A stretch of DNA of 64,000 bases, from assembly GCA_030522415.1 (NCBI GenBank), contig CM060126.1, positions 9,672,852 through 9,736,851 of the forward strand, written 5' to 3'. A program made the translations under genes and the position numbers. Below the pieces are notes generated by a model. The model did not search any database and was not told the origin of the DNA. It saw only the letters and a list, made by a program, of their open reading frames with translations. The stretch is from Channallabes apus. Its lineage: Eukaryota; Chordata; Actinopteri; Siluriformes; Clariidae. The number at the start of each line of letters is the position of its first letter. The first letter of the stretch is position 1. Below are positions 1 through 64,000 of this stretch, in pieces.

Positions 1-1996
1 GAGTGCTATATAAAGTTGACCCCCACCCCCCCTCCCCCTTAGTCTTGTTTGTTTGTGCATATTTATGCATGCAAAATAAACACTTATGCTCAATAATTTT
101 ACAACATATTTAGGGTATATAATTTTTTTTTACTCAACCCAAATCACTTAAAACTAATCTTGTTTGTCTGTTTGTCTGCAAAATAAACATTTGTGTTCAT
201 TCTGTTTTTGGAAGATTAGCCACATTTTTTTTTTTACGTTATTTCATTTTTGTTACAAAAAGAGAAGAGCTGCATAAACAAACAAGACTGATTTGAAGCG
301 ATTAGGAGAATAAAGGGGCTGATTTGTAAATGAAAAAAAATAATACTCTCCTGATTATTATATTTTCCTTACAGATACAGTGTATAAAAGACAGGGATTT
401 ATTTTTAAATAGTGAATGGTAAATAACTTCACTGTACTACAGTAAAGAATAAATAAACTTTTTTGGAAATTTACAGTATAGACGTAATATACTGTATAAC
501 AAGTCTGTCATATATAATCAATCATAATAGTTATTAAAGGGTACACGATTCCTTTAATTCATTAATACAAAAATAAATAATACAAAATTAATTGTGTGAA
601 TAATAATAAAGTCAGACATCGCTCAGGAAAAAAAAAAAATTTAAGTCTCAATGAGAATTCAGTGAGCTTTTGGAAAGCTCTTTATTTTCTTTTTCTGAGC
701 TCAGCATAAGACGCATGAATGAGGCTGAGGTGAGAATAGACTAAGTCGATATAGAGAGCTCTCTGATTTCTTTGCCTGAAATTAAAAAGAGGTGCAAAAT
801 TTTCTAATTATTTCACAGTAGAAGAGAGAAATTTACCTACGTAGGTTAAATTAAAGACAAAAAGCTTCTCTGTTTTCTAGAGCAACAGGAGAAATACGCC
901 ATAGTCTGATTTTGGTTTCACACACACCTCATACTGTACTAAGAGACCGTAATGATACTTTTTAGAGAGCTCTTTTCTAATTTTCTTTTCCTCTGGGGTG
1001 CCTCGTATATGAGTTTGTATATTTTGTCCGTCATGATTCATTTCTTTAATCATCAGCTGGCAGGTATGCAGCGATTTTATTAATTTTTATTAAAATAAAC
1101 AATCAATGTGCCTTTAAGCAGCCCATGAAACCTGAAATTTTTATTCCATTGACCACATGTTTGAGGTTATATTGCTGAACATCACAAAGATATATGAATG
1201 TCGTTTACCAGTTTTAATTTGCTTAGAGAACACAAAACTCGGGAGGAACGGTGACTGATGGAGTTAACTGATGCACAATCGGTCCACATCAAATTATTCT
1301 CAATGTGACCAAGAAATTTCTTTTATTCAAGGTTTCCTTTTTTTGTCCTAAAGCTGCCTATGCAACGAATTACTATGCTGTGTTGTCACTTACTGTATGC
1401 CCGGTCACTCAAAAGGCTGCTGATTTAACTTTAACTGTGAGTACAATAAAATCTCAAATTAAAAAATAAATGGGAAAAATACTATGACATTGTTGATCTG
1501 ACCTTGCCGGCAAACTCACAACCCTAAGCATTAATGATGGTCAGTACAGGATAATAGGCCATTAAATGAGAGGACAGTAAAGTTACATTCTGAATAATTT
1601 TCTATTAAACACCAGAATAATGCATGTGTATTCTACACATTGTAATATTATCTTTCAGATAGTACTCTGCTGCAAAAAAAAAAAAAAAACGTACAAACCT
1701 GGAACAAAAGTGTAAATATTAAAGTAATTTGGAAGCACCGTTCCATCACTCCAACACACGTTCTACCACAAGCATGGATGGCGTTTATTGGCTCGATGAT
1801 TTACAACCTCATATTAAATGTTGTGTTACTTTGTGTCTTTTAATATATTAATATGACGACTTTACGTGAATTCTTTCTAATGAATATGTTATGTTCGAAT
1901 GGACCATCAACCCACATGTTCCTTGACTAGTCAGGAAGTTTACCCAGTTTAAGTACACTCCTCTTTCTCCTCTTATTTCAAGCAACATTTAACATT
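1..1996. other. AT-rich intergenic stretch, nothing recognised
   Basis: No reading frame of note and no repeat family that I recognise. It holds several poly-A/T runs and at least four TACTGTA/TACAGTA heptamers (near 437, 473, 490 and 932), the excision-scar motif described in the findings. Confidence 0.6.
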
Positions 1997-2340
1997 CAAT
2001 TCAATTCAATTCAATTTTATTTATATAGCGCTTTTAACAATGGTCATTGTCTCAAAGCAGCTTCACAAAAATGAAAGAAATTTAACAAAAAATAAATAAA
2101 TAAAATAAAATAAAATAATAATTATTATAGAAAAGAAAATAATTGGAAGTGTGTATGTGTGAGAAAAATGTGCAGCTAATAATAATGAGACGAATGAATG
2201 AAATGTCTCTGATGAGCAAGCCAAGGGTGACGGCGACGGTGGCAAGGAAAAACTCCCTGAGATGGCATTAGGAAGAAACCTTGAGAGGAACCAGACTCAA
2301 CAGGGCACCCATCCTCATTTGGGTGATAACAGATAGAAAT
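1997..2340 (-). repeat. Dispersed fish repeat with (TTGAA)n tail, minus orientation
   Basis: Begins with a short TTCAA tandem array followed by a conserved end (TATAGCGCTTTTAACAATGG), then, near 2210-2330, the reverse complement of the 'GATGAGGATGGGTTCCC...CTCAAGGTTTC' core also seen at 36470-36735. The tail of short tandem repeats after a conserved 3' end is typical of LINE- or SINE-type retroposons. The family is common in fish, but I cannot give it a reliable name. Confidence 0.75.
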
Positions 2341-2464
2341 TATATAACATCATGTGTGTTGTGCAGGTGAAAATTCAATATGACAGAAATTATTTAAATT
2401 GACATGAAGACCAGTTCAGCATAGGGACGAGTCAGTAGGTGCAACATGGCCTATAGGGTGACGT

Positions 2465-3290: not shown

Positions 3291-3485
3291 CAATCATTAG
3301 CACAGACCTAACAAACTGAAAGTACGACATTGCACAATTGTTATGAGATCTAATTGTTCTGAAATTTAAATTCAAACTTTTGCTAAGACTCATTATAAAT
3401 TTGCTGCACATAAAACAAGTTTGGATTCATTTTGTTCATTCAGGCAGGTGGAAAGAAATAGGGAGAGAATGAAAGAGAGAGAGAG
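3291..3485. other. Unassigned spacer
   Basis: Short AT-rich stretch between a Tc1 remnant and a SINE, with a GA-rich run at about 3460-3486 that may be part of the SINE target. Confidence 0.4.
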
Positions 3486-3935
3486 GCAGCACGGTGGCTT
3501 AGTGGTTAGCACTACATTTACATTTAAGCATTTGGCAGACGCTCTTATCCAGAGCGACTTACATTTTTATCTCATTACACATCTGAGAGTTAAGGGCCTT
3601 GCTCAAGGACCCAACAGTGGCAACTTGGTGGTTGTGGGGTCTTGAGATCTTCCGAAGATCTTATGCTGAGATCTTCCGAACCGTAGTCCAAGCACTATCG
3701 CCTTGCACCTCAAGGGTTCGAGTTCGAATCCCGCCACCGTGTGCATGGAGTTTGCATGTTCTCCCTGGGCTTGGTGGGTTTCCTCTGGGTACTCTGGTTT
3801 CCTCCCATAATCCAATAACATGCAGATTAGGCTAATTGGCTCAGGATTGGCACCCCATCTAAGGTGTATGCCGCCTTATGCCCCCGCGACCCTGTATACA
3901 GGATAAAGCTGTATATACAACGATGATACAGAGAG
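3486..3935 (+). repeat. tRNA-derived SINE (family I), interrupted by another SINE
   Basis: Head 'CACGGTGGCTTAGTGG' has the A-box pattern, and 'GGTTCGAGTTCGAATCCC' near 3714 supplies the B box. The conserved body follows (TGGAGTTTGCATGTTCTCC, then GTTTCCTCCCA and GACATGCAG-like text) and then a tail near 3890-3930. At least eight other copies lie in this window. The head is split at 'TTAGCACT' by the minus-strand element at about 3509-3700; the bases AGCACT occur on both sides as a short target duplication. Confidence 0.85.
3509..3700 (-). repeat. Nested tRNA-derived SINE with UnaL2-type 3' tail
   Basis: On the minus strand this ends in the conserved stem-loop 'GTCGCTCTGGATAAGAGCG' followed by 'TCTGCCAAATG' and a TAAATGTAAATG tail, the 3' end shared by SINEs mobilised by UnaL2-type LINEs. 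The tRNA-like head is at the right (3640-3700) and is damaged by a local duplication of GAGATCTTCCGAA (about 3643 and 3670). The element sits inside the family I SINE with AGCACT on both sides. Confidence 0.8.
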
Positions 3936-5215: not shown

Positions 5216-5224
5216 AAGGTTATT

Positions 5225-5399: not shown

Positions 5400-5435
<36 letters not shown>

Positions 5436-5505: not shown

Positions 5506-5559
5506 TGAGTGTTGGCTTGCTTTATTTATTTTTAATATTCTTTAATAAATACCATTGAG

Positions 5560-11734: not shown

Positions 11735-12385
11735 TGATAACCTGGGCTCATCAGACCACATGACCTTTTAAGAAAGCTACTCAACAGTCCCTTCGTTATG
11801 CTCCTCAGCAAACCAGAAGAATTATTTTTTTCTGTCGTATCCAGTTCCTCCCTGTCACTAGGGGGCTCCCGCATTAAGACTACTACAACCATTCAGTCGG
11901 GGGAGGGCCCCAGACTATCACGTGTTTCCTTCAAACCACATGATGTCACCGACCGCATCTTTTCGAACTTCTCGCACCGTTGGGGGCGGCGTAAAAACAC
12001 AAGGAGTACAGCGCTATGGGCTCCTTCTGCTTGCGTGAGCTCACAGGCGCTCCTGATTGGCTGTAGTGCCGTGATTAATGTGGGAGCACCAAGTACCTCA
12101 TTCCACCCCACTGAGAGAGCTTTCTCTAGACTCGGCTGCGAGAGGCTACAGCATCACCCGGGGATCGAATCAGCGACCGGATGATAGAGCGTTTTTTTTT
12201 TTTTTTTTCCTTGATTAGCCTCACTGATAAATATTCTTAAGGCTGCATTGCTGTTTAGTCCCAATCCCTTGAGTTCTCTTCATATTGTGTGTGTGGAAAT
12301 GCTCCAACTTTCACTTTAAAACATAGCTACAATATGGGATCTTTTTTGCGTTCGGGGGGGGGATGAATAATTTTTTATTATTCGA
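11735..12385 (-). mobile_element. Tc1/mariner remnant split by a SINE
   Basis: Left part (11740-11818): 'GGGCTCATCAGACCACATGA' then GCTCCTCAGCAAACC. Right part (12209-12380): GATTAGCCTCACTGATAAAT, 'GCTGTTTAGTCCCAATCCC'. Together they are minus-strand transposase sequence of one fish Tc1 lineage, interrupted by the SINE at about 11820-12208. A second decayed copy of the lineage lies at 23716-23900. Confidence 0.8.
11820..12208 (-). repeat. tRNA-derived SINE (family II), nested in a Tc1 remnant
   Basis: Same family as 35934-36195 and 46842-47295: CCCCAGACTATCACGTG, CACCGTTGGGGGCGGCGT, 'CAGCGCTATGGGCTCC', CTGATTGGCTGTAG, GCTGCGAGAGGCTACAGC and B box (minus strand) in GGGGATCGAATC. The tRNA head ends near 12190, abutting a T16 run. 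The 128-residue plus-strand frame inside it is fortuitous. Confidence 0.85.
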
Positions 12386-14936: not shown

Positions 14937-16277
14937 GTTAGTTTTCTTTGTTTTAAAATCAGCAAAATCATCACCATTGAGTACATTAGGTATGATAGAG
15001 ACACTCTTGTTTCTATTGGTATACAATGTACTCACAATTCGACGTTTTTAACTCCGGATCCGAGCTGGCCGAGTGAGATCCTGAGGGAGAACAATGGACG
15101 CGACGCGAAGTGGAGGCCTCGAGGGAGACGAGCCGGCGTGAGGAATAGGCTCAGAACCCGTGCACACCGCACACCTCTGCCTAGCATCCTGCTCGCCAAC
15201 GTCCAGTCACTGGAGAACAAACTCGATGACCTCAGGGCCAGGATAAAGTTCCAGAGAGACATTCGGGACTGCAATCTCCTCTGCTTCACCGAGACATGGC
15301 TGAACCCAGCGGTGCCAGACCACGCCATACAACCAGCCGAGTTCTTCTCGGTTCACCGCATGGACAGGACGCGGGACTCGGGGAAGTCAAGGGGAGGCGG
15401 CGTGTGCTTAATGGTGAACAACAGCTGGTGCAACAGCGCGAGCGTTGTTCCTCTTACACGCTCCTGCACACCAAACCTGGAACTACTGTCCATCATGTGT
15501 CGTCCATTTTATCTACCCCGGGAGTTCACATCGGTCATAATCAGTGCCGTTTACATACCTCCACAAGCAGACACAGACAAGGCCTTATGCGAGCTGCATG
15601 AGGCACTCACACAGCACCAGACACAACACCGGGACGCTGCGCTCATAGTGGCGGGGGATTTTAATAGTGCCAACCTCAAACGCGCAGCGCCGAACTTTTA
15701 TCAGCACATCACCTGCCCCACCAGGGGCGAAAGGACACTGGACCACTGTTATACCACGGTCAAAGACGGTTACAAGGCACAATCTCGTCCAGCGTTTGGT
15801 AAATCCGACCACGCCGCCATCTTCCTCATGCCAAAATATAAACAAAGGCTGAAACAGGAAGTGCCGGCTCAGAGGGAGGTCGCGCGCTGGACGGACCAAT
15901 CGGTGGCCGCGTTACAGGACGCACTCGATGACGCAGACTGGGACATGTTCAGAAACAGCTCCGATGATGACGTCAGCGTGTTTACGGAAGCGGTTGTGGG
16001 ATTTATTGAGAAGCTAGTGGACGATACGGTAGAGAAAAAGACTATCAGAACGTTTCCCAACCAGAAGCCGTGGGTGGATAAAACCATCCGCGACGCTCTG
16101 AGATCTCGCACAGCTGCCTACAACACGGGACTTGCGTCGGGGGACATGGAACCGTACAAGGCTGCGTCATACAACGTCCGGAAGGCGGTGAAAGAGGCGA
16201 AGCAGCGCTACGGGAGAAAACTAGAGTCACAGCTTCAACAGAGTGACTCTAGGAGCCTACTGTATGGCAGGGACTGA
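14937..16277 (+). pseudogene. LINE endonuclease domain, frame ended by a 5-bp insertion
   Basis: The first half of the single L2 polyprotein: an apurinic/apyrimidinic-type endonuclease that nicks target DNA to start reverse transcription. The frame is open from 14937 but has no ATG. The first GTG that could be used as a start is at 15138, yet family-like residues (PSWPSEILRENNGR) lie upstream of it, so the real domain starts earlier. Visible motifs: LANVQSLENKLDDLR (about 15195), CFTETWL near 15285, VAGDFN (about 15648), LDHCYT (about 15740) and FGKSDHAAIFL (about 15796), which together give the catalytic Asn, Glu, Asp and His residues. Translation then runs into TGA at 16275 only because of the TACTGTA at 16258-16264. 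Without those five bases the frame continues into the frame at 16313. Confidence 0.9.
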
Positions 16278-16392
16278 GAACAATAACGGATTATAAAGCA
16301 CCAACATCCGGTATGATGAACGCGGACGCGGCTCTGGCAGACGAGCTCAACACTTTCTATGCTCGCTTCGATGCTGCAGCTAAAGACCCTAG

Positions 16393-17505
16393 CGGACTTC
16401 ACTACCGGACACACTCGACCCACTACAGTTCGCTTATCGCAACCGTTCCACAGACGATGCAATCTCATATCTCCTCCACACATCTCTCACCCACCTGGAC
16501 ACTAAGAGGGGAAATTATGTGAAAATGCTCTTCATCGACTACAGCTCTGCATTTAATACCATAATTCCCTCCACATTCACCACCAAGCTGGAGCACCTGG
16601 GACTCAGCTCACCCATGTGTCAGTGGATCTCCAACTTCCTAACTGGCAGACCACAGGCAGTAAAGATGGGCGGTCATGTCTCAGCCTCCCTCACACTCAG
16701 CACTGGAGCGCCCCAGGGTTGTGTTCTGAGCCCCCTGCTGTACTCTTTATACACCTACGACTGCATGGCCACTACCAACTCCACCGCCGTCATCAAGTTT
16801 GCTGACGACACTGTCGTGGTGGGCCTGATCACGAACAACGATGAGTCGGCCTACCTGGAGGAGATTGGGAATCTGGAGAACTGGTGCCAGAGGAACAATC
16901 TCCTCCTGAACGTCAGTAAGACAAAGGAGCTGATAGTGGACTTTTGTACAAAGCAGGAGAGGAACTACCAGACCCCCGTCATCAACAAGAGCCCAGTGCA
17001 GAGAGTGGACAGCTTCAGATACCTCGGTGTTCACATCACGCAGGACCTGTCATGGTCCTGTCACATCAACACCGTAGTGAAAAAGGCCCGGCAGCGTCTG
17101 TACCACCTCAGACGTTTGAGAGACTTCAGACTGCCCTCCAAGGTGCTCAGGAATTTCTACTCCTGCATCATAGAGAGCATCCTGTCGGGAAACATCTCGA
17201 CTTGGTTTGGAAACAGCACCATGCAGGACAGACGAGCTCTACAGAGGGTGGTGCGTTCAGCTGAGCGCATCATCCGCACCAAGCTCCCTGACCTGCACTC
17301 AATCTACACCAAGCGGTGCTGGACCAAGGCCAGGAAGATCGTGAAGGACCTCAGCCATCCCAATAATGGACTGTTCTCTCTGTTGCGGTCAGGAAAGCGC
17401 TTCCGCTCCCTGAAGGCCAACACAGAGAGACTGAGGAGGAGCTTCTTCCCGCAGGCAATAAGGTCTCTCAACCATACCACATTCACACCACAAACACAGA
17501 ACTAA
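16393..17505 (+). pseudogene. LINE reverse transcriptase domain, N-terminal motifs deleted
   Basis: The second half of the L2 polyprotein, which copies the element RNA at the nicked target. The frame is open from 16393; the first ATG is at 16519. Family-like sequence begins at 16402 ([10 protein letters not shown]). Motifs in order: [12 protein letters not shown] (about 16528); [14 protein letters not shown] (about 16708); [10 protein letters not shown] (about 16798) with both aspartates kept; and a conserved block [12 protein letters not shown] (about 17020). It ends at 17505. The segment normally joining endonuclease to motif A (linker and RT motifs 0 to 2) is missing: the frame from 16313, LADELNTFYARF, jumps directly to LPDTLDP. 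So the catalytic core is intact, but no functional polyprotein could be made. Confidence 0.9.
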
Positions 17506-18787: not shown

Positions 18788-20394
18788 AACTAAGAAAAAA
18801 AAATACTCCAAGAAGCCTAGACTAATTAGCTGACGTACCAGAGGTTACAGGTTTCTTAAACCTGGGTGCACTAAGTAAGATAACAAACATCAAGGCTAGT
18901 CCAAATAGCCCAGTGCGCTATGACAGTTTGACCTGGCAGTGTGCATTCGAGTCAGCAGTTCCTCACACAATAGTGTGTGCACAGTGTACTGGATCGCAAA
19001 CTATCACCAACAGAGAATATAATTCTGTCCAATTAAACCTTTAAAGGCTTGTGTTAATCCATAACTGACCTGCAATGGGCTCTTTAAACACCTAAGAAGC
19101 ACGATCAAAACGGATGCCATCAAACCCTATCGAGATTACTTCAGTTCCCAAAACGGTTCTGCTCCATTATATTGCCATCATTCTCCACTGTCAGAATGGT
19201 AGATGTGTGGGTTCATTTAGAAGCAGGTGGAGAGAAAAGACTATGCCAAGTTGATAGGTGTCTGGCTCATTTAGAAGCAGGTGGACAGAACTGCCTGGAT
19301 AAGCTCCATGCTCTCAATGCCACTCTAATGAGGGCACAGCAGGCCAGACCCCATTCAGAGCAACGGGTCCTGCTGATGGCTGACTACCTGCTGTTTCCGC
19401 AATGCCCCGTCTCTTGTCCCAGGAGCTTCATTAGCTCTTGCAGAAGAGACTCTACAGCTGATAGGCAATGAGGGTACTATAAACAGCATTTCCTCTCTAA
19501 CACAGAAACGGACACAGTGTGTTTGTTGCAAGCTTCCGAAATGTTCCTCTGGAGATCCTCTCTGGCCCTCTTGTTTCTCTAATTTCCAGTTGAGAAAATG
19601 TTAGTTTCCACAAGTTGTCTCATGTGCTCTCATAAATAGATAATCACACATCTCACTAATGGGGCAAGGCCTTTAGGCTCTTTAAATGAAAACAAAAAAA
19701 CAAAAAGTAATAAAATAAATACACAATAATATACAGACCATCAGAGATTATTAAAATTGCCCAAATACAAAATGTTTATTTGAACTACTGTATAACCCTC
19801 CAATATAAAAACAGCTTTATGTGATTATTGCATTTCAGTAATTTTAACAAAATAGACAAATATCAGAGATTATTGTTATCATCATATTATCATTATTATC
19901 AAACATTATTTTGCTCAGCCAAAACATAATTTTTCCTTTTACTCTGTCAAATTTTCCAATTTGATCATTTTGCCATTTTCTCCTCAAATGACTGCTACCA
20001 ATCAGTGTGTGTGTGTGTGTGTTAAGACTAGCACATGCTTTCTCTGAGACATATGAAGCAAACCACTATCACCCTCCCACTCGCCCCCCCCCCCCCCCAA
20101 AAAAAAATAAAAAACTGCAGCGTAAAACACTTAGCGGCTAGTGAAATCCGCACTCCTTAGTTTAGCTGAGTTCACAGATGTCCATAACCGGCTACTATCC
20201 CTATGATTGACAGGGAAAGGGCAATGCGATCCCTCCCACCAAGAGAACTCACTCAATTGTTCTCTGCTGGACTCCCGGCAATGGCTGAGGTTGTCATCAT
20301 CAGAATTTCTGTGGTTAGCTTTCAAGTAAATTCAAAATGCACTTTTAAAATGATTATTTCATTTATTAAGAGGAAAAAAGCTGCCTAAACCTAC
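18788..20394. other. Intergenic, with a short tandem duplication at about 19199-19290
   Basis: At 19199-19240 and 19253-19292 the phrase CATTTAGAAGCAGGTGGA recurs in similar context (AGATGTGTGGGTT / ATAGGTGTCTGGCT before it). A 99-residue plus frame spans 19172-19471 but shows no family signature. A C14 run lies at 20085-20098. The rest is unremarkable. Confidence 0.45.
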
Positions 20395-21301
20395 AGTACC
20401 TGAGCCTATGTGAAAAAAAGTAATTGCTCAGTTTGTTTTAAGTCAAGAACAGTTGGCGGTTTTCGAGCATGAACAGCCTGATTAAGGTCATGCCACAGCA
20501 TCTCAATCAGATTTAAGTCCAGACTTTGACTAGGCCACTCCAAAACCTTTATTTATTAATTTTTTTGAAATTTAGAGGTGGACTTGCTGGTGTGTTTTGG
20601 ATCATTGTCCTGCCAACCCAAGTGCGCTTGAACTTGAGGTCATGAACTGATGGCCGAACATTCTCTATCAGGACTTTTTGGTAGAGCACAGAATTTATGG
20701 TTGCATAAATCATGGTAAGTTGTCCAGGTCCAGGACCCTCACACTACCACCACCAGCACCATCTTTGACTGTCGGTATGATGTTCATTTAATGAAATTCT
20801 GCTTTAGTTATATGCCAGATGTAACAGGACACACCTTCCAAAAAATTCCACTTTTTGTCTCATCAGTCCACAGAATATTTGCCCAGAGGTCTTGGGATTA
20901 ATCACAATGTATTTTGGCAGATGTAGATGAGGCTTTGTGATCTTTAGGGTCAGCAGTGGCTTTATCCTTGAAACTTTCACATCTGTTCTTGAATTTCTTC
21001 AGATGGAGGCATGATGTGTTGTTTTTTGAGATCTTTTAGCGTGCTTGACTCTGTCAGAATGTAGTTCAATGATTTCTTGATTCAACAGGTCTGGCAGTAA
21101 TCAGGAGTGGAATTTAACTCAGCTTTCCAATAAATATGGTTAATCACAGTTCATTCATGATTTAGCAAGGGAGCAATTACTTTTTCACATAGGGGAAGTT
21201 ACTGTATGTTTGGACAGCTTTTTCCCCTGATCTCAAACATTTAAGTGTGACAAATATGCAACAAAAAATCAGGATAATCAAATACTTTTTCACAGCACTC
21301 T
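20395..21301 (-). mobile_element. Decayed Tc1/mariner element, same lineage as 62456-64000
   Basis: GTCATGCCACAGCATCTCAATC, then 'GACTTTGACTAGGCCACTCC', GGTGTGTTTTGGATCATTGTCC, CCAGATGTAACAGGACACAC and CAGGTCTGGCAGTAATCAGG follow the same order and strand as the better copy at the window's right end. The subterminal phrase GAGCAATTACTTTTTCACAT occurs at the right (about 21171), and its complement at the left (about 20410). The reading frame is destroyed. A TACTGTA at about 21190 splits a phrase close to the right end. Confidence 0.85.
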
Positions 21302-27775: not shown

Positions 27776-28048
27776 GTGGGGATGGTGGGGGCAGAGGAGA
27801 GACCTGTGTGTGTTTTGTGTCTTATACCGCTGGCAGCAGACCGCATGAGACCCAACAAATTAGGAAGACACTTAGAGACAACACACGTTAATAAGCCACT
27901 CGACTTCTTTCAAAGAAAGCTGGCAGAATACATACAGCAGGAGAATCGCATGGTAAAATCTGAATCAGTGGACAGCAAAGCACAAATGGCTTCATTCAAA
28001 GTTGCATACAGAATTGGCCAGTGCAAAAAAACTACAAACGATTGCTGA
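27773..28048 (+). pseudogene. BED zinc-finger start of a second hAT transposase gene
   Basis: A 91-residue frame whose first third is a C2H2 BED finger: CVLCLIPLAADRMRPNKLGR, then HLETTH, giving C-x2-C and H-x4-H. It continues with DFFQRKLAEY, the phrase that follows this finger in ZBED5/SCAND3-like hAT genes, and breaks off after VAYRIGQCKKTTNDC. The dimerisation and catalytic parts are missing. The frame starts with GTG or TTG rather than ATG, so it is not a gene in its own right. Confidence 0.75.
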
Positions 28049-28533
28049 GCAGCTAATAAACATGGGGTCAGTTATGCAAAGATAAGTGACAACGTAAGCC
28101 TTTTATAACAATTGCACGTGTATTTTATCTGTTTTTAACTTGGTGTTGTTTGATCTTATTGGTTTAGAAATTGATATTTCAATAAACAGTAAACTTGGCA
28201 GATTTCGTTATTATTTTGTTAACAAGTGGGGCTTGAAAATTTGCTCACCCCTTTAAGTGGGGAATGACAGAAAAAGTTTGAGAACCACTGCTTTAAGTGT
28301 ACTAAAGTATACTTAAAGTTGTTCCACTTTAGCACACAAAAGTATACTTAATACACTTAAAATTGTGCTTTTGTACAATTTAATGACAACTTAAATACAC
28401 TTAGTACAAAATTAGTTGTTCCAAAATAGCAAACCTCAAGTATACTAGTCATTAGCCTGGCTGCAATTACATTTAAGTATGCTTTGGCATGCTAGGTTTT
28501 AATATACTTAGCATTTTTTTTTTTTTACTGGGG

Positions 28534-28935
28534 CCAGTTTGGGTGGCTCCAAACTTTTTCCATTTTAGAACAACGGACCTGCTCCTGTGAACTGTGAACT
28601 GTTCCCGTGAACAAAGTATATATATATGTTTTGTAAACCCTTGCCATGGTCTTGCCATGACCATGGAGAATTCCTTAGATTCATGGCTTGCTTTTTCCCC
28701 CCTCGTGCTTTGGATTCTATGAACTGTGAATGGTGGGCATGCAAATAGCTTTTCTAAATCAGGTCTAATCAATTGAATTTGCCACAGGTGGACTCTGGTC
28801 AAATTCTACAGACCTTTCAATATAATTAAACAAACAGAACACACCTGAGCTCAGTTTGGAAAGCCTTAGTCGATATGTTATTTTTAATAAGGATTGTAAT
28901 TGTTGTAATGGGGTACAGTGTGTAGCAGATTAATG
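28534..28935 (-). mobile_element. Tc1 remnant, right part (continues from 24560)
   Basis: Resumes minus-strand Tc1 text directly after the CCCCAGT element: GGTGGCTCCAAACTTTTTCC, TTCATGGCTTGCTTTTT, CAATTGAATTTGCCACAGG, CACACCTGAGCTCAGTTTGG. Together with 24560-24963 this shows that the AT-rich element inserted into a Tc1 copy. Confidence 0.8.
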
Positions 28936-28995
28936 GTGTGATAGCTCTCTGGAATGTTGCTGGTGCAGATCAAACATGCATAAGTTGCACTCAAA

Positions 28996-29035
28996 TCTTC
29001 TTCTATCATTATCTATACCATATATCCTGTACAGG
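28996..29035 (-). repeat. Left piece of a family I SINE split by the RTE-like LINE
   Basis: CTTCTATCATTATCTATACC and ATATCCTGTACAGG correspond to the tail end of minus-orientation family I copies (compare 18391). The SINE resumes at 32143 after the LINE. Confidence 0.75.
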
Positions 29036-29399
29036 TTCAATGCAACCTCGCGGGGCCGGGGGGTGGGTAGTTGTGTCAGTGGAGGGGGCGCAATCCAGTG
29101 TCTTCTTGTGCCAACCCCAAGTCTGGATAAATGCAGAGGGTTGTGTCAGGAAGGGCATCCGACGTAAAACATTTGCAAAATCAATGATGCGAATCACAAA
29201 TATAATTCTCATACCGGATCGGTCGTGGCCTGGGTTAATAACGACCGCCACTGGTGCTGTTGACCTACAGGGTGCCGGTGGAAATTGGGCTACTGTTGGT
29301 CGAAGAAGGAGAGGAGGAGGCGTGTTCGAAAGCAGAGAGAAGAGGAAAGGCAAGAGTTTAGGAGTGATAGTAGGGACTACTAGTAGGGAAGGTAAGAGA

Positions 29400-30130
29400 G
29401 TTGGTTGATATGATGCAGAAAAAGAAGGTGGATATACTGTGCGTCCAGGAGACCAGGTGGAAAGGTAGCAAGGCCAGAAGCTTAGGAGCAGGATTCAAAT
29501 AGTTTTACCATGGTGTGGATAGGAAAATAAATGGAGTAGGAGTTATCCTGAAAGATGAGTTTGTAAGGAATGTTCCAGAGGTGAAGAGAGTATCAGACAG
29601 GTTGATGAGTCTAAAGCTGGAAATTGAAGGAGTGATGTTCAATGTTGTTAGTGGTGATGCTCCACAGGTAGGATGTGAGTTAGAAGAGAAGGAGAAATTC
29701 TGGAGTGAGTTAGATGAAGTGATGCAGAGCATCCCCAGAGGTGAGAGTGTAATGATTGGTGCAGACTTCAATGGACATGTTGGGGAAGGGAACAGAGGTG
29801 ATGAAAATGTTATGGGCAGGTCTTCAGGACAGGAATATAGAAGGACAGATGGTGATGGATTTTGCAAAGAGGAGTGAAATGGCAGTAGTAAATACTTTCT
29901 TCCAGAAAAGGCAGGAACATAGGGTGACATATAAGAGCGGAGGCAGCAGCACTCAGGTGGACTACATCTTGTGTCGACGTTGTAATCTGAAAGAGATTAG
30001 TGACTGCAAAGTGTTGGTAGGGGAGAGTGTAGCCAGACAACACAGAATGGTGATGTGTAAAAATAACCCTGGTGGTGAGGAAGGTGAAGAGGACAAAGGC
30101 AGAGCAGAGGACAAAGTGGTGAAAGCTTAG
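29400..30130 (+). pseudogene. Endonuclease domain of the RTE-like LINE
   Basis: An apurinic-type endonuclease that would nick target DNA. Pieces are spread over shifted frames: VDILCVQETRW (about 29430, catalytic Glu), GVGVILKDEFVRNVPEVKR (29536 on), GADFNGHVGEGN (about 29757, catalytic Asp and Asn), then in another frame AVVNTFFQKR and TQVDYILCRR (about 29955, the second aspartate). A frameshift lies near 29830. The final histidine region is at about 30035 (VARQHRMV). In-frame stops begin near 29500. Confidence 0.8.
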
Positions 30131-30139
30131 AAAGGAAAA

Positions 30140-32113
30140 ATGTTGTGTAGTCTTTATGGAGGAGTTGAGACAGGCTAAGGGTGGTCAGGAGGTGCTTCCA
30201 GTTGACTGGACAACTACAGCCAATGTACCAGGGAGACAGGTAGGAGGGTACTTGGTGTATCATCAGGTAAGGGAAAAGTGGACAAAGAGACTTGGTGGTG
30301 GAATGAGGAAATCCAGGAGTGTATACAGGGAAAGAGGCTAGCTAAGAAGAAGTGGGACACTGAGAGGACTGAAGAGAGTAGACAGGAGTACAGGGAGATG
30401 CAGCGTAAGGTGAAGGTAGAGGTGGCAAAGGCCAAACAAAGAGCATATGAGGACTTGTATGCTACTGTAGTCTGGACAGTAAGGAGTGAGAGGTGGATCT
30501 GTACAGGTTGGCGAGGCAGAGAGATAGAGATGGGAAGGATGTGCAGCAGGTTAGAGTGATTAAAGATACTGTAGAGATGTAAATGTACTGACAGATGCCA
30601 GGAGGGTGATGGGAAGATGGAAGGAGTACTTTGAAGAGTTGATGAATGAGGAAAACGAAAGAGAACAAAGAGTAGAAGAGGTAACTGTTGTGGAGCAGGA
30701 AGTAGCAAATATTAGTAGGTGAGGTGAGAAGGGCGTTGAAGAGGATGAAGAGTGGAAAGGCTTTTGGTCCTGATGACATACCTGTGGAGGTATGGAAGTG
30801 CTTAGGAGAGGTGGCAGTAGAGTTTCTGACTAGTTTGTTTAACAAGATCTTGGAGAGTGAGAGGATTCCAGAGGAATGGAGGAGAAGTGTATTGGTGCCG
30901 ATTTTTAAGAACAAGGGAGAAGTGCAGAGCTGTGGCAATTACAGAGGTATAAAGCTAATGAGCCATACAATGAAGTTGTGGGAAAGAGTAGTGGAAGCTT
31001 GGTTAAGGGCAGAGGTGAGCATTTGTGAGCAACAATATGGTTTTATGCCTTGAAAGCGTACATCATATGCAATATTTGCTTTGAGGATGCTGGTGGAGAC
31101 GTACAGAGAAGGTAATAAAGAGTTGCATTGTGTCTTTGTAGATTTAGAGAAAGTATACGATAGGGTGCCGAGAGAGGAGCTGTGGTGTTGTATGAGGAAG
31201 TCTGGAGTGGCAGAGAAGTATGTTAGAGTGGTGCAGGACATGTATGAGAGCTGTAAGATGTGCTGTAGGTGTGACAGAAGAGTTCAAGGTGGAGGTGGGT
31301 CTGCATCAAGGATCGGCTCTAAGCCCCTTTTTGTTTGCTCTGGTGATGGACAGGATGACAGATGAGGTAAGACAGGAGTCTCCATGGACTATGATGTTTG
31401 CAGAGGACATTGTGCTTTGTAGCGAGAGCAGAGAATAGGTGGAGGAAAATTTGGAGAGGTGGAGGTACGCTATGGAAAGCAGAGGAATGAAGGTTAGCCG
31501 CAGCAGGACGGAATACTGTACATGTGTGTGAATGAGAGGGACCCAAGAGGAACAGTGAGGCTACAGGGAGCAGAGGTAAAGAAGGTGCAGGATTTCAAGT
31601 ACTTAGGGTCAACGGTCCAGAGCAACGGAGAGTGTTCAAAGGAGGTGAAGAGGCGGGTGCGATAAAAGAGTATCAGCAAGAATGAAAGGAAAGGTGTACA
31701 GGACAGTGGTGAGACCAGCAATGCTCGACGGCTTAAAGACAGTGGCACTGAAGAAAAGACAGGAGGCAGAGCTAGAGGTAGCAGAGCTGAAGATGTTGAG
31801 GTTCTCTTTGGGAGTGACAAGGATGGATAGGATCAAGAATGAGTTCATCATAGGGACAACCCATGTTAGATGTTTTGGAGATAAAGTCAGAGAGGCCAGA
31901 TTGAGGTGGTTTGGACATGTTCAGAGGAGAGATGGTGAATATATCGGTAGAACGATGCTGAGGTTGGAATTGCCAGGCAAGAGGTCTAGAGGAAGACCAA
32001 AGAGGAGATTTATGGATACAGTGAGAGAGGACATGAAGTTAGTTGGTGTGAGAGAAGAGGATGCAGAGGATAGGGTTAGATGGAGGCAGATGATTCCCTG
32101 TGGCGACCCCTGA
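30140..32113 (+). pseudogene. Reverse transcriptase and C-terminal domain of the RTE-like LINE
   Basis: The linker includes TWWWNEEIQECIQGKRLAKK (30287 on). Reverse transcriptase blocks follow: RMKSGKAFGPDDIPVEVWK (30742 on), LVPIFKNKGEVQSCGNYRG (about 30892), motif [13 protein letters not shown] (about 31135), motif [17 protein letters not shown] (about 31302) and motif C FAEDIVLC (about 31397). Motif C should be F-A-D-D; the first catalytic aspartate is now glutamate (GAG at 31403). The C-terminal part keeps RLRWFGHVQRRDGEYIGR (about 31902) and ends RWRQMI..CGDP. Frames shift at 30463, 30567 and 31514, each at a TACTGTA, and elsewhere. Confidence 0.85.
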
Positions 32114-32142
32114 AAGGGAACAGCCAAAAGACAAAGAAGAAG

Positions 32143-32437
32143 ATATCCTGTACAGGGTCACAGAAGGCCTGGAGCCTATCTCAAGGGCCTCAGGGTAACT
32201 AGGAGGGTTTAACCCTGGACAGGTTGCAATATCCAGCTCAGGACACACACACTCAAAAGAGGCAAATTAGAAAAACCAAGTAGTCTAATCTGCATAGGTT
32301 TGGACTATAAGAGGAAACTGACCCAGCTTGGGAAAACAATCAAACTCACACACCACAGACCTGAGGTGGGACTCAAATTCTCAATACTGGATGTGCTAGG
32401 CCACAGTGCTAACCACTACGCCACTGTGCCACCGTGC
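32143..32437 (-). repeat. Right piece of the family I SINE split by the LINE
   Basis: CTGGAGCCTATCTCAAGGG, CCCTGGACAGGTTGC, TCTAATCTGCATAGGTTTGG, and a head at AGTGCTAACCACTACGCC. It is old and diverged compared with the copies at 18369, 24096 and 54072, fitting its role as a target for the LINE. Confidence 0.85.
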
Positions 32438-35273: not shown

Positions 35274-35933
35274 TAATCAAATTACTATTATGGCATTTAA
35301 AAATCTATTTTTGACCATTTTGTATCCAAGCATGTACCGTAGGTGAAGCCACAAAGTCTAATGAAAAAACAAAACGTCTTCTTTAAATTGAGAATGAAAT
35401 TACACAAATTGGATAAAGATTTAAATCTTTAAAGCTGTCAGTCATTTCGAAAACTCTTGTGTTAAACTGAATGCTTCGTTTTCACCGTCTCCGCTGAGAG
35501 GATTTGTGTGAAAATATCAATTCTCTTCTTTTAGAAATAAGTCAAAAGCTGTGCTTGAACTGTGCATGGGCTTGTGAGCAGCGCGTTACATTTTAATATT
35601 TAGTTTTCATGACAAATTTTAAATAATACACAGCATCGTTAATCTAAAGGGGATGGTAAGTGAGGGGAGGGGGGATTTACAGAGGGGATGGTTTTTGTTA
35701 TTTTGTTCAACAGGGGGACCCTGCTAATTAGTTATCCTTCCCACATCATTACAGTTATAAGACACCATATGTCACAAAACACATTATTCATATCAGTACA
35801 CTTTTACTTTCTCCCTCAACAACACATTTTTTAAATCCAATTACTTTAAATAGACACAATGAGCAGATACAGGGCTCACTAGGATGCCGATCCTGCAAGA
35901 AATGTATGAAATAGAACAAAATAACATCATTCG
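34136..35933. other. Intergenic with two long (AC)n microsatellites
   Basis: (CA)n at about 34497-34562, preceded by a CG-alternating run GTGTGCGCGCGCG, and (CA)n at 35226-35270. The rest is AT-rich and unassigned. Confidence 0.6.
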
Positions 35934-36195
35934 GCCTCCAAGTGGCGCAGTGGTAAAGTGCTCGCCCTATCATCCGGAGATTGCGAGTTCGATTCCCGGG
36001 TGATGCTGTAACCTCTCGCAGCCGAGCTCTGTCAGAGGGGAGGGATGAGAGGTACTTAGTGCTCTACAGCCAATCAAGGGTGTCTGTGAGCTCACGCAAG
36101 CGGAAGGAGAGGAGAGCGCTGTCCTCCGAGTGTGTTACACCACCCGCATGAAGTTAGTAACATAAATTGACTGGATTTACCAATTGGGATACCTT
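35934..36195 (+). repeat. tRNA-derived SINE (family II), 3' truncated
   Basis: The tRNA-like head is the best preserved in the window: AAGTGGCGCAGTGGTAAAGT (A box), GCGAGTTCGATTCCCGGG (B box). The family body follows: AACCTCTCGCAGCCGAGC, GAGGTACTTAGTGCTC, AGCCAATCAAGGGTGTC, GAGAGCGCTGTCCTCCGAG. It stops resembling the other copies at about 36150. This is a SINE head and not a functional tRNA gene. Confidence 0.9.
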
Positions 36196-37670: not shown

Positions 37671-38279
37671 ATAACCAGGAAGTAATCCAGCTTTTACAGC
37701 AATTCAGCACTTTGCATACAGCATTTACATACAGTATAAACCTCAGATCACTTAAAACCTACAAAGAAATTCTTTTTTTTTTATTTTTAATTTTTTTTTT
37801 TTCCAAACCATGCCATTGCTATATATACAGTGGTTACTCAATCGGAATGGTTATTACCGTCGCGCTCACCGCCGTTTAAAGGCGACAGCGGCCAAAATAA
37901 ATCAGTTGTACATTTGTACTGTAATTTTAGTACTGTGATTATGAATTCGTTTAACTACAGTCTTTCACTTGATTTTAACAGCTACGAAGTGCAGTTCTAA
38001 AGGAGCGTGTCTCATTAATCCGGCAGAGAATGAACTAAGGCATGAGGCATCAGTCTATAGTTATATAGCGCCACTCAATGGTAAAAGCCAGCAAACGCAC
38101 AAACCCAAAAGCCGAGCTTGTGTCTATTTAAAGTAATTGGATTTAAAAAATGTGTTGTTGAGGGAGAAAGTAAAAGTGTACTGATATGAATAATGTGTTT
38201 TTTTTTGTCGCCGAGCACAGCGACGGTAAAACCAATGCTCCGATTAGGTAACCACTGTACAGTATATACACAACACACA
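37671..38279. other. Intergenic, nothing recognised
   Basis: Poly-T runs at 37776-37800 and several scar heptamers (about 37731, 37915 and 38256). The phrases TTATATAGCGCCACTC and 'CCAATGCTCCGATTAGG' suggest an unnamed repeat. No gene. Confidence 0.35.
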
Positions 38280-43673: not shown

Positions 43674-44893
43674 CACTCACCTAAAGGATTATTAGGTTCA
43701 ATTTCGCATTAATGCAATTATCTAATCAACCAATCACATGGCAGTTGCTTCAATGCATTTAGGGGTGTGGTCCTGGTCAAGACAATCTTCTGAACTCCAA
43801 ACTGAATGTCAGAATGGGAAAGAAAGGTGATTTAAGCAATTTTGAGCATGGCATTGTTGTTGGTGCCAGACGGGCCGGTCTGAGTATTTCACAATCTGCT
43901 CAGTTACTGGGATTTTCATGCACAACCATTTCTAGGGTTTACAAAGAATGGTGTGAAAATGGAAAAACATCCAGTATGCAGCAGTCCTGTAGGCGAAAAT
44001 GCCTTGTTGATTCTAATGGTCAGAGGAGAATGGGCCGACTGATTCAAGCTGATAGAAGAGCAACTTTGACTGAAATAACCACTTGTTACAACCGAGGTAT
44101 GCAGCAAAGCATTTGTGAAGCCACAACATGCACAACCTTGAGGCGGATGGGCTACAACAGCAGAAGACCCCACCGGGTACCACTCATCTCCACTACAAAT
44201 AGGAAAAAGAGGCTACAATTTGTACGAGCTCACCAAAATTGAACGGTTGAAGACTGGAAAAATGTTGCCTGGTCTGATGAGTCTCGATTTCGTTTGAGAC
44301 ATTCAAATGGTAGAGTCAGAATTTGGCATGGGAACAGAATGAGACCATGGATCCATCATGCCTTGTTACCACTGTGCAGGCTGGTGGTGGTGGTGTAATG
44401 GTGTGGGGGAGGTTTTCTTGGCACACTTTAGGCCCCTTAGTGCCAATTGGGCATCATTTAAATGCCACGGGCTACCTGAGAATTGTTTCTGACCATGTCC
44501 ATCCCTTTATGACCACCATGTACTGTACCCATCCTCTGATGGCTACTTCCAGCAGGATAATGCACCATGTCACAAAGCTCGAATCATTTCAAATTGGTTT
44601 ATTGAACATGACAATGAGTTCACTGTACTAAAATGGCCCCCACAGTCACCAGATCTCAACTCAATAGAGCATCTTTAGGATGTGCTGGAACGGGAGCTTA
44701 GTGCCCTGGATGTGCATTCCACACATCTCCATCAACTGCAAGATGCTATCCTACCAATATGGGACAACATTTCTAAAGAATGCTTTCAGCACCTTGTTGA
44801 ATCAATGCCATGTAGAATTAAGGCAGTTCTGAAGGCGAGAGGGGGTCAAACACCGTATTAGTATGGTGTTTCTAATAATCCTTTAGGTGACTG
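43674..44893 (+). mobile_element. Tc1/mariner element with both inverted repeats
   Basis: The left end CACTCACCTAAAGGATTATT and the right end AATAATCCTTTAGGTGACTG are inverted repeats with few mismatches, flanked by TA-rich target. The transposase gene lies between. This is the most complete Tc1 copy in the window. Confidence 0.95.
43814..44861 (+). pseudogene. Tc1 transposase gene, disrupted
   Basis: Would cut and paste the element at TA targets. It starts MGKKGDLSNFEHGIVVGARR. The helix-turn-helix at about residues 22-48 (GLSISQSAQLLGFSCTTISR) binds the inverted repeats. The first frame stops at 44240 (residue 142). Catalytic residues: Asp in WSDESRF (about 44271), Asp in FQQDNAPCH (about 44550) and Glu in SPDLNSIEHL (about 44650), all present. 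A TACTGTA at 44521-44527 shifts the frame just before the second aspartate, and the tryptophan after IEHL is a TAG. It ends near GGQTPY. Confidence 0.9.
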
Positions 44894-46841: not shown

Positions 46842-47295
46842 CTTTTTTATTTATTTATTTTTAATTATCCCGCCCCCCCCCCAATCGTGTCCAATTCCTC
46901 CCCGTCACTAGGGGGCTCCCACATCAAGGCTACTACTACCACTCATTCGGGAGGGTCGAAGACTATCACGTGTTTCCTCCGAACCACGTGATGCCAGCCG
47001 ACCGCATATTTTCTAACTGCTTGCTATCGCACCGTTGGGGGCGGCGTTACACACTCGGAGGACAGCGCTATCCGCTCCTTCCGCATTGCGCAAGCTCACA
47101 GACATCCCTGATTGGCTGTAGAGCAGTGAGTAATGTGGGAGCACAAAGTACCTCTCATCCTGCCCCTCTGAGAGAGCTCGGCCAATCAGCTCTCTCTAGA
47201 CCTTCAGCTGCGAGAGGTTACAGCATCACCCCGGAACCAAACCAGGGATCTCCGGATGACAGGGCGAGCACTTCACCACTGCGCCACTCAGAGGC
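46842..47295 (-). repeat. tRNA-derived SINE (family II), full length
   Basis: The A-rich end is at the left (T-rich on this strand), then CCTCCCCGTCACTAGGGGGC, 'GACTATCACGTGTTTCC', CACCGTTGGGGGCGGCGT, CTGATTGGCTGTAGAGC and CAGCTGCGAGAGGTTACAGC, with the tRNA-like head ending CACTGCGCCACTCAGAGGC. CATTGTTTCAATTG at 46828-46841 and CATCGTTTCAATTG at 47296-47309 form a 14-bp target duplication with one change. Confidence 0.93.
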
Positions 47296-47309
47296 CATCG
47301 TTTCAATTG

Positions 47310-51989: not shown

Positions 51990-53439
51990 CCCATGGTGTG
52001 TGAATGTTGACTGGAGGTCCCACCACGGTCGTAAAATGTGAATAAATACCATTAACCTCTACGGGCCCCAGTTGGACTACAGAGGTTCCTAGATAGATGG
52101 GCACAGTTTGCTCAAATAATGACTTGCTGCAAACATACACGCGCACACACACACATTGGCATGCTCTTAAAGGTGTATTAGGCAAGATTAGTCAAGATGC
52201 GCAAAAGATTAACTCTCTAATGGGAAATTAAGAAGGATTAAGAGTGGAATAATTGTTTTTTAACTCCTTGATCTTGCCCCTTCCATTCCCACTCATGTAC
52301 ACAAAGCTCTGTCCCTAGGGTCCGGGGATCGGCATTTGTATTAGCATGGCATCACTTTAGATCATTGCTACTATAAAAAGCTAAACATGTTAAAATTTGA
52401 CTACTGATTTGACTTACAGTTATCACTACTACAGAAAATTGACCAACTAAATAGATAAACAGCGCTGTGGCATGAGTTAAGATAACAGGCTTGTAGATTG
52501 TATGCTTTGTTTTAGTTAAAACAATTGTTGTCTTGTACTGTATAATATCTTCTCGCTACTGCCCTCTCTATGTCATGCGACTGTCTGTGAATGAGTAAAC
52601 AAACTGTAATGTTTCAATACAAATATGACAACCAGAGAAAAGGCCTTAAATCTCCCACTGCTTTAATTATTGTATGTTACGTAGGTGAATGGAGGCTGCT
52701 AACAATAATCATGATAATTATTGATCTTTTTCAAATGTGGCTTGATGTGGGAAAAAAAAAACTATAATGAAACAGATGTTCAAGGCAAGAAAAAATACTC
52801 AATCTGTTTGTTCTCTGAGAGCAGAGATATGCTTCGACATGCATCAAACTGCGACCAATAGGGATGCCAGAGCGTGAAAGATTTATTTAAAAAAGATAAC
52901 CGCAGCTGGATACATAGAGCAAAGGCAAACATGAGATTATTGTTAAGCCAAATGAAGAGAATGTGCCCAAGTCAGACTGAACTATCATCACTACAGTGAA
53001 CTGAACTATGAACACACAGAACTCAAGATGAACTTTACTAACAACTGTGGGTAGAAGAAAATACACCCCTGTAAAAATGATGTGTATAAAATAGAAGAAA
53101 TAATAAAAATAGAATAAAATCAACCCAGGAAAAATCATGTCGGATCGTTTTCTACACTTTTATTGTGCAAGAGCAGCTAACAAAAGACAAAAACCTACAC
53201 AATATCCTGGCTGCATCTTCTAGTTGCACTATACTGTACAGTAGATACTAGAGTTACTATAATTATTACCATCTGAACTACAGTACATCTCGAGACGACG
53301 TAACCTGATGTTCTGAAAGGCAGACTTTGTTGCTTTACAGATACTGTATTATGCAAACTGTATTATTATACTATAGCTACCTACAGTATACAGAATGAAA
53401 CCACTTAGTGTGTACAGTATATACAGTACAGTAAATGGG
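51990..53439. other. Intergenic, nothing recognised
   Basis: Mostly unique-looking. Its right end is dense in scar heptamers (about 53232, 53237, 53281, 53341, 53383, 53413-53430). Confidence 0.4.
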
Positions 53440-54962: not shown

Positions 54963-54964
54963 TA

Positions 54965-56504: not shown

Positions 56505-57930
56505 GCATTGTATATTTCTGGATCAAAAGAGACCACTGCAAAAATTGGCAGTTTCTCAGGTTTTACTTTTATACAGTAGGTATGTGTTTCTGTTAAAAAA
56601 TTAACAGATTTTTTTTATTTTAAGAACCACAGTACTGACACCATTTGTCCCAAATTCCAATTAAGAATATTGTTATTTAGAGAAATTACATAAAGAAAAT
56701 TGCTAAGCAGTGATTGCAAAGATCTTGAACAATGCAAAGAAAACAAGTTGATATTCATTTTAAACAGTATGCACAGTATAAACTAATGTTTTAACATTCA
56801 GCATCTGGTGGAATAACCCTGTTTGGCAGTTACAGCTTTCAAGTGTCTTGGCCCTCCACCAGTCTTTAACATTGCTGTAGGGCAACTTTATGCCACTCTT
56901 GAACACAATCAAGAAGCTCAGCTGGCTTGTATCCATCTAACCCTTGATCACATATTCCGGAGGTTTTCAACGGGGCTCAGCTCTAGAGACTGGGCTGGCC
57001 AAGACACTGTCTTAATATCCAGACCGTGATTGACTTGGCTGTGTACTGTAGCATTGTCCTGCTGGACCATTTGGTGAACCTAGTCAGAGCGGAAGAACGC
57101 AAATGTTCTTCCAGCATAACCTTACAGTATACATGGCTTGATTTGTGTGTCTTTCACAAAGACAAATTAATCTGATTCTAGCCTTGCTGAAGAACCGCCA
57201 GATCACCAACCCTCCATCACATTTCACAGTTGCTGCAAGACGTTGTGGTTTGTAGACTTCTCTTCAGGTCTCTGTCTAACCATAAGATGTTGGCTAAAGC
57301 TAACAATTGGAACCATCAGAGAGCTTTCTCCAGTTCTCTATGGTCCAATTCCTGAGCTATTTTGCAACTTCAGCCTGGCTCTTCTTTGCTTTCTCTTTGA
57401 TGAGGAGCTTTTATCTGGCTTTGCACGTCTTCAGCCCCGCCTCTAGGAGCCTGTCCTCGCCATGCACTTTACCCAAACTTCGGTTTGCCACTGTGTTGTG
57501 ACATCCATGTCAGTAGAGATTAATTTTCGCCCTCTGTCAGTCTCTAGCTTTGTTGTCCCCAGTGTCTGCTGCTTGACCTTGTTCTTGAGTACTTCTGTCT
57601 TTGAAATGTGAAGGATGGAAGCAACATGATGCTCACTGTATCCCTGTGCCAGTAAAGCCAGGATTGAAATCTTCTTTTCTTCTGACAAAACTTTACATTT
57701 TTCATTCAACTCTTTTGTCATGGTCAATGTTTTTTTTTTTTTTTTTTTACATTCCAGAGTTACTACATGATGTTTCTGTATTTCATAAAGCAATGTGTTT
57801 GTGTTGGAATTGACCAAATGATGGAATGGAACGGAATGGTTGCTCTTTTTGTAGAGATGCTGATTTAAGAAAAAAAAAAAAAAGCAGGGGTTTCCTTTTT
57901 TTTTTTTTACATTGCTGTATACAGTATATT
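56505..57930 (-). mobile_element. Tc1/mariner element, nearly full length, decayed
   Basis: Left subterminal text GAGACCACTGCAAAAATTGG, then minus-strand gene text: CCACCAGTCTTTAACATTGC, GAGGTTTTCAACGGGGCTCAG, GCCTTGCTGAAGAACCGCC, TCTGCTGCTTGACCTTGTTC, and the right end near 57925. At least three TACTGTA/TACAGTA scars (56572, 57044, 57123) break phrases known from other copies. Confidence 0.85.
57443..57721 (-). pseudogene. N-terminal DNA-binding part of the Tc1 transposase
   Basis: From the ATG at 57721 it reads MTKELNEKCKVLSEEKKISI, then LALLAQGYSEHHVASILHIS, a helix-turn-helix for binding the inverted repeats, and KTEVLKNKVKQQ. The frame is lost in the catalytic part, which is scattered over 56830-57440. 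It is too short to act as a transposase. Confidence 0.75.
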
Positions 57931-58935: not shown

Positions 58936-58975
<40 letters not shown>

Positions 58976-61000: not shown

Positions 61001-61029
61001 CTGTAGGGTGTGCCACGGTGCATCAGTGA

Positions 61030-61720: not shown

Positions 61721-62455
61721 GTAAGTTTTCCACCATGATACAGAGGATGTTGAACTTTTTATTCTCTCTGTAACCTGGCAAGATTTTTTTTAATTACATT
61801 TATGAAAGAACAAAGAGCAGCTGGTGAGCTTATAGCTGTTGTAAGTAATAACAAGAACCAACTTGTTTTGAGGGCAATACATGAAAAGAAATTAAACTAT
61901 AAAAGCTTAACAAGCATAACGTGTCATTTATTCATACATTAGCAATGGTATTTATTGCCAAATGCATTTATAACACAGCGTTCATGATGTCAAACCACAA
62001 TATTGTAAACATCTCAGCAAAACTTGGACCTGTTAGAAAAGCTAACTTTAAAAAAAAAAAAAGAAAAAAGGAAAAGCTGACCAGAGGCTGACTATGATGC
62101 TGCTGCTTTTAATTATCCCAGAAAGGATAATGAAGACGGTTCATTTTTCCATTATCTCCACTGTCAGACAGCAGACCATAATCCTCAGAATCAGCACTTG
62201 CATTAAAAGCTTTCGCAGCATCATGAACAAAGTGAACAGGCAATGTACGGTACATCATTCTCCAACTAACAGTGAATACTAATTGAATGAATTACGCAAC
62301 CTGTCTGTGTGCACGTAAACTAACATATCTGCTTTACATGCTGTTTGCAAGTCATATTTTATGCCCATACTTTCTTTGTATTCACATACGGATGGCATAC
62401 TGTCTGTTTAGTAAAACAATGTGCCAGTATCTGGAAAAACAAGATGGCAAAAGTA
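61721..62455. other. Intergenic, nothing recognised
   Basis: AT-rich. No element recognised before the Tc1 left end. Confidence 0.4.
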
Positions 62456-64000
62456 CAGTGGTGTGAAAAACTATTTGCCCCCCCCCTCCTGATTTCTTAT
62501 TCTTTTGCATGTTTGTCACACAAAATGTTTCTGATCATCAAACACATTTAACTATTAGTCAAAGATAACACAAGTAAACACAAAATGCAGTTTTTAAATG
62601 AGGGGTTTTATTATTTAGGGAGAAAAAAAATCCAAACCTGCATGGCCCTGTGTGAAAAAGTAATTGCCCCCTGAACCTAATAACTGGTTGGGCCACCCTT
62701 AGCAGCAATAACTGCAATCAAGCGTTTGCGATAACTTGCAACGAGTCTTTTACAGCGCTCTGGAGGAATTTTGGCCCACTCATCTTTGCAGAATTGTTGT
62801 AATTCAGCTTTATTTGAGGGTTTTCTATCATGAACCGCCTTTTTAAGGTCATGCCACAACATCTCAATAGGATTCAGGTCAGGACTTTGACTAGGCCACT
62901 CCAAAGTCTTCATTTTGTTTTTCTTCAGCCATTCAGAGGTGGATTTGCTGGTGTGTTTTGGGTCACTGTCCTGCTGCAGCACCCAAGATCGCTTCAGCTT
63001 GAGTTGACGAACAGATGGCCGGACATTCTCCTTCAGGATTTTTTTGGTAGACAGTAGAATTCATGGTTCCATCTATCACAGCAAGCCTTCCAGGTCCTGA
63101 AGTAGCAAAACAACCCCAGATCATCACACTACCACCACCATATTTTACTGTTGGTATGATGTTCTTTTTCTGAAATGCTGTGTTACTTTTACGCCAGATG
63201 TAACGGGACACGCACCTTCCAAAAAGTTCAACTTTTGTCGCGTCGGTCCACAAGGTATTTTCCCAAAAGTCTTGGCAATCATTGAGATGTTTTTTTAGCA
63301 AAATTGAGATGAGCCTTAATGTTCTTTTTGCTTAAAAGTGGTTTGCGCCTTGGAAATCTGCCATGCAGGCCGTTTTTGCCCAGTCTCTTTCTTATGGTGG
63401 AGTCGTGAACACTGACCTTAATTGAGGCAAGTGAGGCCTGCAGTTCTTTAGATGTTGTCCTGGGGTCTTTTGTGGCCTCTCGGATGAGTTGTCTCTGCGC
63501 TCTTGGGGTAATTTTGGTCGGCCGGCCACTCCTGGGAAGGTTCACCACTGTTCCATGTTTTTGCCATTTGTGAATAATGTCTCTCACTGTGGTTCGCTGG
63601 AGTCCCAAAGCTTTAGAAATGGCTTTATAACCTTTACCAGACTGATAGATCTCAATTACTTTTGTTCTCATTTGTTCCTGAATTTCTTTGGATCGTGGCA
63701 TGATGTCTAGCTTTTGAGGTGCTTTTGGTCTACTTCTCTGTGTCAGGTAGCTCCTATTTAAGTGGTTTCTTGATTGAAACAGGTGTGGCAGTAATCAGGC
63801 CTGGGGGTTACTACAGAAATTGAACTCAGGTGTGATAAACCACAGTTAAGTTATTTTTTAACAAGGGGGGCAATCACTTTTTCACACAGGGCCATGTAGA
63901 TTTGGAGTTTTTTTCTCCCTTAATAACGTAAACCTTCATTTAAAAACTGCATTTTGTGATCAATTATGTTATCTTTGACTAATAGTTAACGGTTTTTGAA
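62456..64000 (-). mobile_element. Tc1/mariner element, right end cut by the window edge
   Basis: TA (62454-62455) followed by CAGTGGTGTGAAAAACTATT, the left inverted repeat. The right part (63935-64000) mirrors the left subterminal text (TTAGTCAAAGATAACA) but the outer end is beyond the window. The element ends in CAG, the triplet expected in excision scars of the form TA-CAG-TA. The copy at 20395-21301 is an older relative. Confidence 0.93.
62677..63701 (-). pseudogene. Tc1 transposase gene with two frameshifts
   Basis: Starts at the ATG at 63701: MPRSKEIQEQMRTKVIEIYQ. Two helix-turn-helix subdomains (residues about 5-50 and 70-115) are linked by a GRPTK motif that contacts the minor groove. 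The catalytic part has Asp in LWTDATKVELFG, where the residue after Asp is changed from the usual Glu, Asp in LQQDSDPKHTS and Glu in SPDLNPIEMLWHDLK, spaced as in DD34E enzymes. Frame shifts near 63290 and 62970 split it into three frames (63279-63701, 62963-63301, 62677-62982). It ends at KGGPTSY. Relatively young but not functional. Confidence 0.92.

Follow-up and report, generated by a model that had tools for sequence, protein, structure and literature searches.

In the 64,000-bp stretch of DNA analysed here, hereafter the window, most of the 105 copies of the heptamers TACTGTA and TACAGTA appear to be excision footprints of CAG-ended Tc1/mariner elements, a reading to which we assign a probability of roughly 0.88. 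This interpretation, put forward earlier in a sequence-only reading, is supported by the enrichment of the heptamers, by their flanks, by gains of exactly 5 bp at tested sites and by CAG-ended elements nearby. Neither of the two outcomes named there as fatal to it was obtained, given heptamer numbers far beyond Markov expectation and the exact 5-bp insertions seen at TA where close protein relatives permit the comparison. A word count over the whole window gave 62 TACTGTA and 43 TACAGTA, a density of 1.64 heptamers per kb, in agreement with the little over 100 copies (about 60 and about 40) claimed before. The enrichment over base composition, for which about 14 copies had been claimed as the expectation, was likewise upheld, as composition predicts 12.8. 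Comparison with Markov and shuffled backgrounds and with the other TA-NNN-TA words had also been proposed, and was carried out within the window. Markov models gave 13.4 (order 2) and 17.7 (order 3) expected heptamers, order-2 simulations in which the heptamers were masked before fitting gave 9.9 ± 3.0 (maximum 18, n = 60), and dinucleotide shuffles in 500-bp blocks gave 10.9 ± 3.1 (maximum 18, n = 100). Given that about 10-18 copies are expected against 105 observed, TA-C(A/T)G-TA stands far above the models, with a surplus of about 87-95 heptamers, and perhaps 87-95 of the 105 are footprints. When the 32 strand-merged TA-NNN-TA words were compared, TACTGTA/TACAGTA was the sole strong outlier, with a z of 25 against 2.6 for the next word. 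Shorter or imprecise footprints showed little excess, the largest among the short words tried being that of TACTTA/TAAGTA (41 vs 30.8). The heptamers are spread unevenly, with 2 to 17 per 4 kb (variance/mean 2.8).

The excision-footprint mechanism is already known. According to PMC7827188, the first cut falls three nucleotides within the element and the resulting 3-nt overhangs are kept as a footprint by end joining, and two further papers give TACAGTA and TACTGTA as typical footprints, the canonical Sleeping Beauty footprint TAC(A/T)GTA being identical to the two heptamers of the window (PMC4378557, PMC3432063). In the sequence of events that we propose for the window, elements whose ends read CAG...CTG would be cut out by a transposase with a stagger of 3 nt, which would leave the donor site with 3′ overhangs of 3 nt. 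These would be retained by end joining, and the target TA would thus become TA-CAG-TA or TA-CTG-TA, i.e., five bases longer. Repeated rounds, presumably in the germ line and involving one or more CAG-ended families, would have left about 1.4 scars per kb in the window.

The predicted gain of five bases was sought in broken genes. Database proteins were aligned to the window with frame changes permitted at equal cost for all small lengths, and a heptamer was regarded as testable when more than 10 database proteins spanned it (n = 7). At four of the seven testable heptamers, namely 16258, 44521, 31514 and 57123, the alignments contained exactly 5 additional bp (see the table for the features at the first three). 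At 16258, where the first 40 of the 120 proteins listed were used, 38 placed the gain at 16260-16264; the other common change in this LINE gene, seen with 35 of the 40, was the loss of one base near 16392. At 44521, the gain was found in 106 of 117 spanning proteins, and the same Tc1 gene also showed a +2 change near 44325 in 106 of 120 proteins. At 31514, it was found in 12 of 16 spanning proteins and, in another alignment run, in 22 of 120 proteins, most of the 120 not reaching the site; a 2-base deletion near 31650 was seen in this LINE in 58 of 120 proteins. The aligned stretches at these three sites contain one heptamer each. In addition, a tblastn test on pairs of alignment pieces recovered the +5 change at 16258 (47 proteins) and 44521 (68 proteins), and elsewhere once, with one protein. 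The named best protein relatives belong to ray-finned fishes (Cirrhinus, Electrophorus, Silurus, Cyprinus and others), so that the DNA very probably derives from a teleost. The LINE that contains 31514, which we take to be RTE-like, lies under a region of strong GC skew (0.39 at 28001-32000).

Alignment of the diverged Tc1 copies used 60 of 120 listed Tc1 proteins, few of which gave alignments spanning the heptamers of the copies at 38 kb and 53 kb. Among the 34 proteins that spanned the heptamer at 57123..57129 (minus strand), 27 showed the +5 change and 5 a different shift, with a median identity of 31%; this heptamer probably marks an excision within a diverged Tc1 transposase gene and is the weaker case among the four. 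No +5 change was found at 57044 (0 of 34 spanning proteins), at 55317 (0 of 16, median identity 33%) or at 55370 (0 of 23, median identity 33%). The reading frame continues uninterrupted across the heptamer at 57044, and because the frame runs on through the word this heptamer looks like a chance copy, some of which are expected among 105. A single protein spanned 39265, without a +5 change, and none spanned 53792, 30463 or 30567. The earlier claim of 5-bp insertions thus stands at 16258, 44521, 31514 and 57123 and falls at 57044 and 55370 (the latter given there as 55369), while the insertions it had placed at 30463 and 30567 agree with frame changes seen by eye in the translations.

Table. 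Features of the window that bear on the excision-footprint reading.
Feature	Position	Strand	Basis
Scar shifting the frame of a LINE gene (gene about 14937-17505)	16258..16264	+	protein alignment
Scar within the transposase gene of a Tc1 copy (gene 43814-44858)	44521..44527	+	protein alignment
Scar in a second LINE (about 29040-32150)	31514..31520	+	protein alignment
Heptamers 30463 and 30567, both where the frame changes, same LINE as 31514	30463..30573	+	by eye, three-frame translations
430-bp CAG-ended MITE with inverted termini, bounded by TA at each end	37828..38257	.	CAG-ended element search
Tc1-like CAG-ended element, TA before it, extending past the window end	62456..64000	-	left end, Pfam
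Inverted-repeat element with heptamers 20392 and 21200 at matching places of both arms	20372..21226	.	arm alignment
Nested heptamers with opposite-sense cores and a common TA, TACTGTACAGTA	53232..53243	.	nest search
Other nests	2464, 39406, 42701, 53422		nest search

Comparisons at the DNA level inside the window gave a different picture. Two pairs had been offered as clean 5-bp insertions, 39265 versus 22786 and 37532 versus 36510, and neither held, the net change at the spot being -4 bp in the first and +4 bp in the second, so that 39265 and 37532 are unusable as proof. Self-comparison of the window DNA yielded nine distinct 5-bp gaps (gap lengths from 1 to 42), none of them at a heptamer, and another length was commoner, contrary to the prediction that 5 bp would be the commonest gap. 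Gains of exactly 5 bp at TA were obtained where close protein relatives span the heptamer and not in this self-comparison. A looser self-comparison placed a 5-bp gap at 20392, and the same gap appeared in an alignment with the element at 62538-63999. Both arms of this related element (left end 62456) have five columns fewer at the spot that corresponds to 20392 and 21200, so the pair may stem from two separate events or from a single inherited scar.

Elements that could have served as sources, CAG-ended and next to a duplicated TA, lie in the window at 37828-38257 and from 62456 onward. The MITE at 37828-38257 is followed on its right by a TA that also opens heptamer 38258. The element that begins at 62456 starts with CAGTGGTGTG after a TA, has only one of its ends in the window, and gave Pfam matches, in pieces, to PF25787 (Sleeping Beauty HTH), PF01498 (Tc3-type HTH) and PF13358 (DDE). 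No CAG-ended element with matching termini emerged from a strict search of the window, and a looser search for CAG-ended elements returned 14 matches vs 4 in the control. The Tc1 copy at 43674 starts with CAC, not CAG, and despite its presence TACACTA/TAGTGTA, the footprint expected of CAC-ended elements, occurred 3 times vs 10.3 expected and was not enriched. A separate observation concerns a sequence of 84 bp that is present in identical, inverted form at 35776-35859 and 38118-38201; the latter lies inside the MITE, and the former is without MITE termini.

The independence of the sites was assessed by comparing 20-bp flanks on each side of the heptamers, in both orientations, for all pairs of the 105. 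The best pair, 20392/21200, matched at 31 of 40 positions and the next best at 24 of 40; the contexts of the heptamers are independent except for this one pair. This result bears on the possibility that a single dispersed short repeat supplied the heptamers as its termini or remnants, copied rather than independently made, as might be suggested by the CAG-ended 430-bp MITE in the window and by the one heptamer pair shared between the arms of an inverted-repeat element. We consider this very unlikely, since no flank pair beyond that one rises above 24 of 40, and since four heptamers break genes that belong to unrelated classes of element. An origin from one repeat family is thus largely refuted by flanks that are unrelated except in one pair.

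The bases next to the heptamers were then scored for their fit to AYA-TA-TRT, three bases on each side. The mean flank score was 3.21 of 6 at the 105 heptamers. It was lower both at the 332 other TA-NNN-TA sites (2.38; Mann-Whitney p 2e-9) and at 4634 TAs (2.29; p 2e-13). A-(C/T)-A was preferred before the heptamer and T-(A/G)-T after it. The target preference of Sleeping Beauty has the degenerate form AYATATRT, and the heptamer flanks carry this Tc1/Sleeping Beauty preference. Sleeping Beauty insertions, as described in two papers, centre on ATATATAT with TA in the middle, a preference of like kind (PMC3271037, PMC10573994).

A second alternative is that host slippage or some other mutational process adds the 5-mer CTGTA or CAGTA in a transposon-free manner. 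The window contains five nests in which two heptamers have one TA in common, and three of these are direct repeats of one core, in keeping with slippage. The cores of the other two, however, are opposite, for which re-insertion accounts and slippage does not, and slippage does not predict the symmetric transposon target preference found in the flanks. We regard this alternative as even less likely than a single copied repeat.

One-base variants of the heptamers were also counted. With the scars masked, the 243 variants observed compare with 203.5 (order 2) and 214.7 (order 3) expected, and with 205.8 ± 13.6 in 60 simulations. Relative to the roughly 95 scars still intact, this excess suggests a change of about 4-6% per site since formation, with wide error and with all scars treated as one age. 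The idea that only very fresh scars are present was dropped; a background that included the scars gave 249 vs 242, and the scars-masked background gave an excess. That TACTGTA is instead a selected functional motif, e.g., a protein-binding site, would suit a short word so strongly enriched on both strands, but is just as improbable as slippage given that the heptamer disrupts the frames of element genes and that its one-base variants are in excess (243 vs 204-215), as for decaying neutral marks.

As excision footprints, the heptamers of the window form a natural, dense and partly decayed set, in contrast to those of Sleeping Beauty, an engineered transposon followed in mouse tumours or human cells. 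The mouse genome has a size of 2.7 Gb. PMC4378557 gives more than 300,000 TAC(A/T)GTA words for it, which on that size would be about 0.11 words per kb vs 1.64 per kb in the window. ZB and other fish Tc1/mariner elements likewise produce TA duplications, and ZB leaves footprints of 0-3 bp in cells; the passages available concern excision from donor plasmids, whereas the scars of the window lie in a natural genome (PMC7913693). A word search of the accessible text of PMC9341512 returned no mention of footprints or excision, and no description of a natural scar density like this was found in the open literature searched with the terms used.

Taken by itself, the window seems to preserve the traces of intense cut-and-paste transposition in the past. 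The genome-wide past burst that the sequence-only reading had proposed is an extrapolation from it, and we give an even chance that scars are equally dense throughout the genome, where they would number on the order of a million as extrapolated from one window. If so, TA-CAG/CTG-TA would be among the commonest small insertions of the genome and would form a countable and datable record of germ-line cut-and-paste cycles, far outnumbering the surviving copies; copy number tallies the elements that stayed, and scars tally excisions. Such a genome-wide density would provide a direct measure of jumps, of precise germ-line end joining and of natural target choice. Scars at that density would also repeatedly give rise to 5-bp frameshifts and to identical mutations arising in parallel, which could mislead species comparisons.

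Other repeats were also noted in the window. A UnaL2 LINE 3′ element (Rfam RF00436) scored above the gathering score at 3522-3575 on the minus strand. In addition, 11835-12191, 35933-36148 and 46885-47296 are related copies of one GC-richer short repeat, which is presumably a tRNA-derived SINE.
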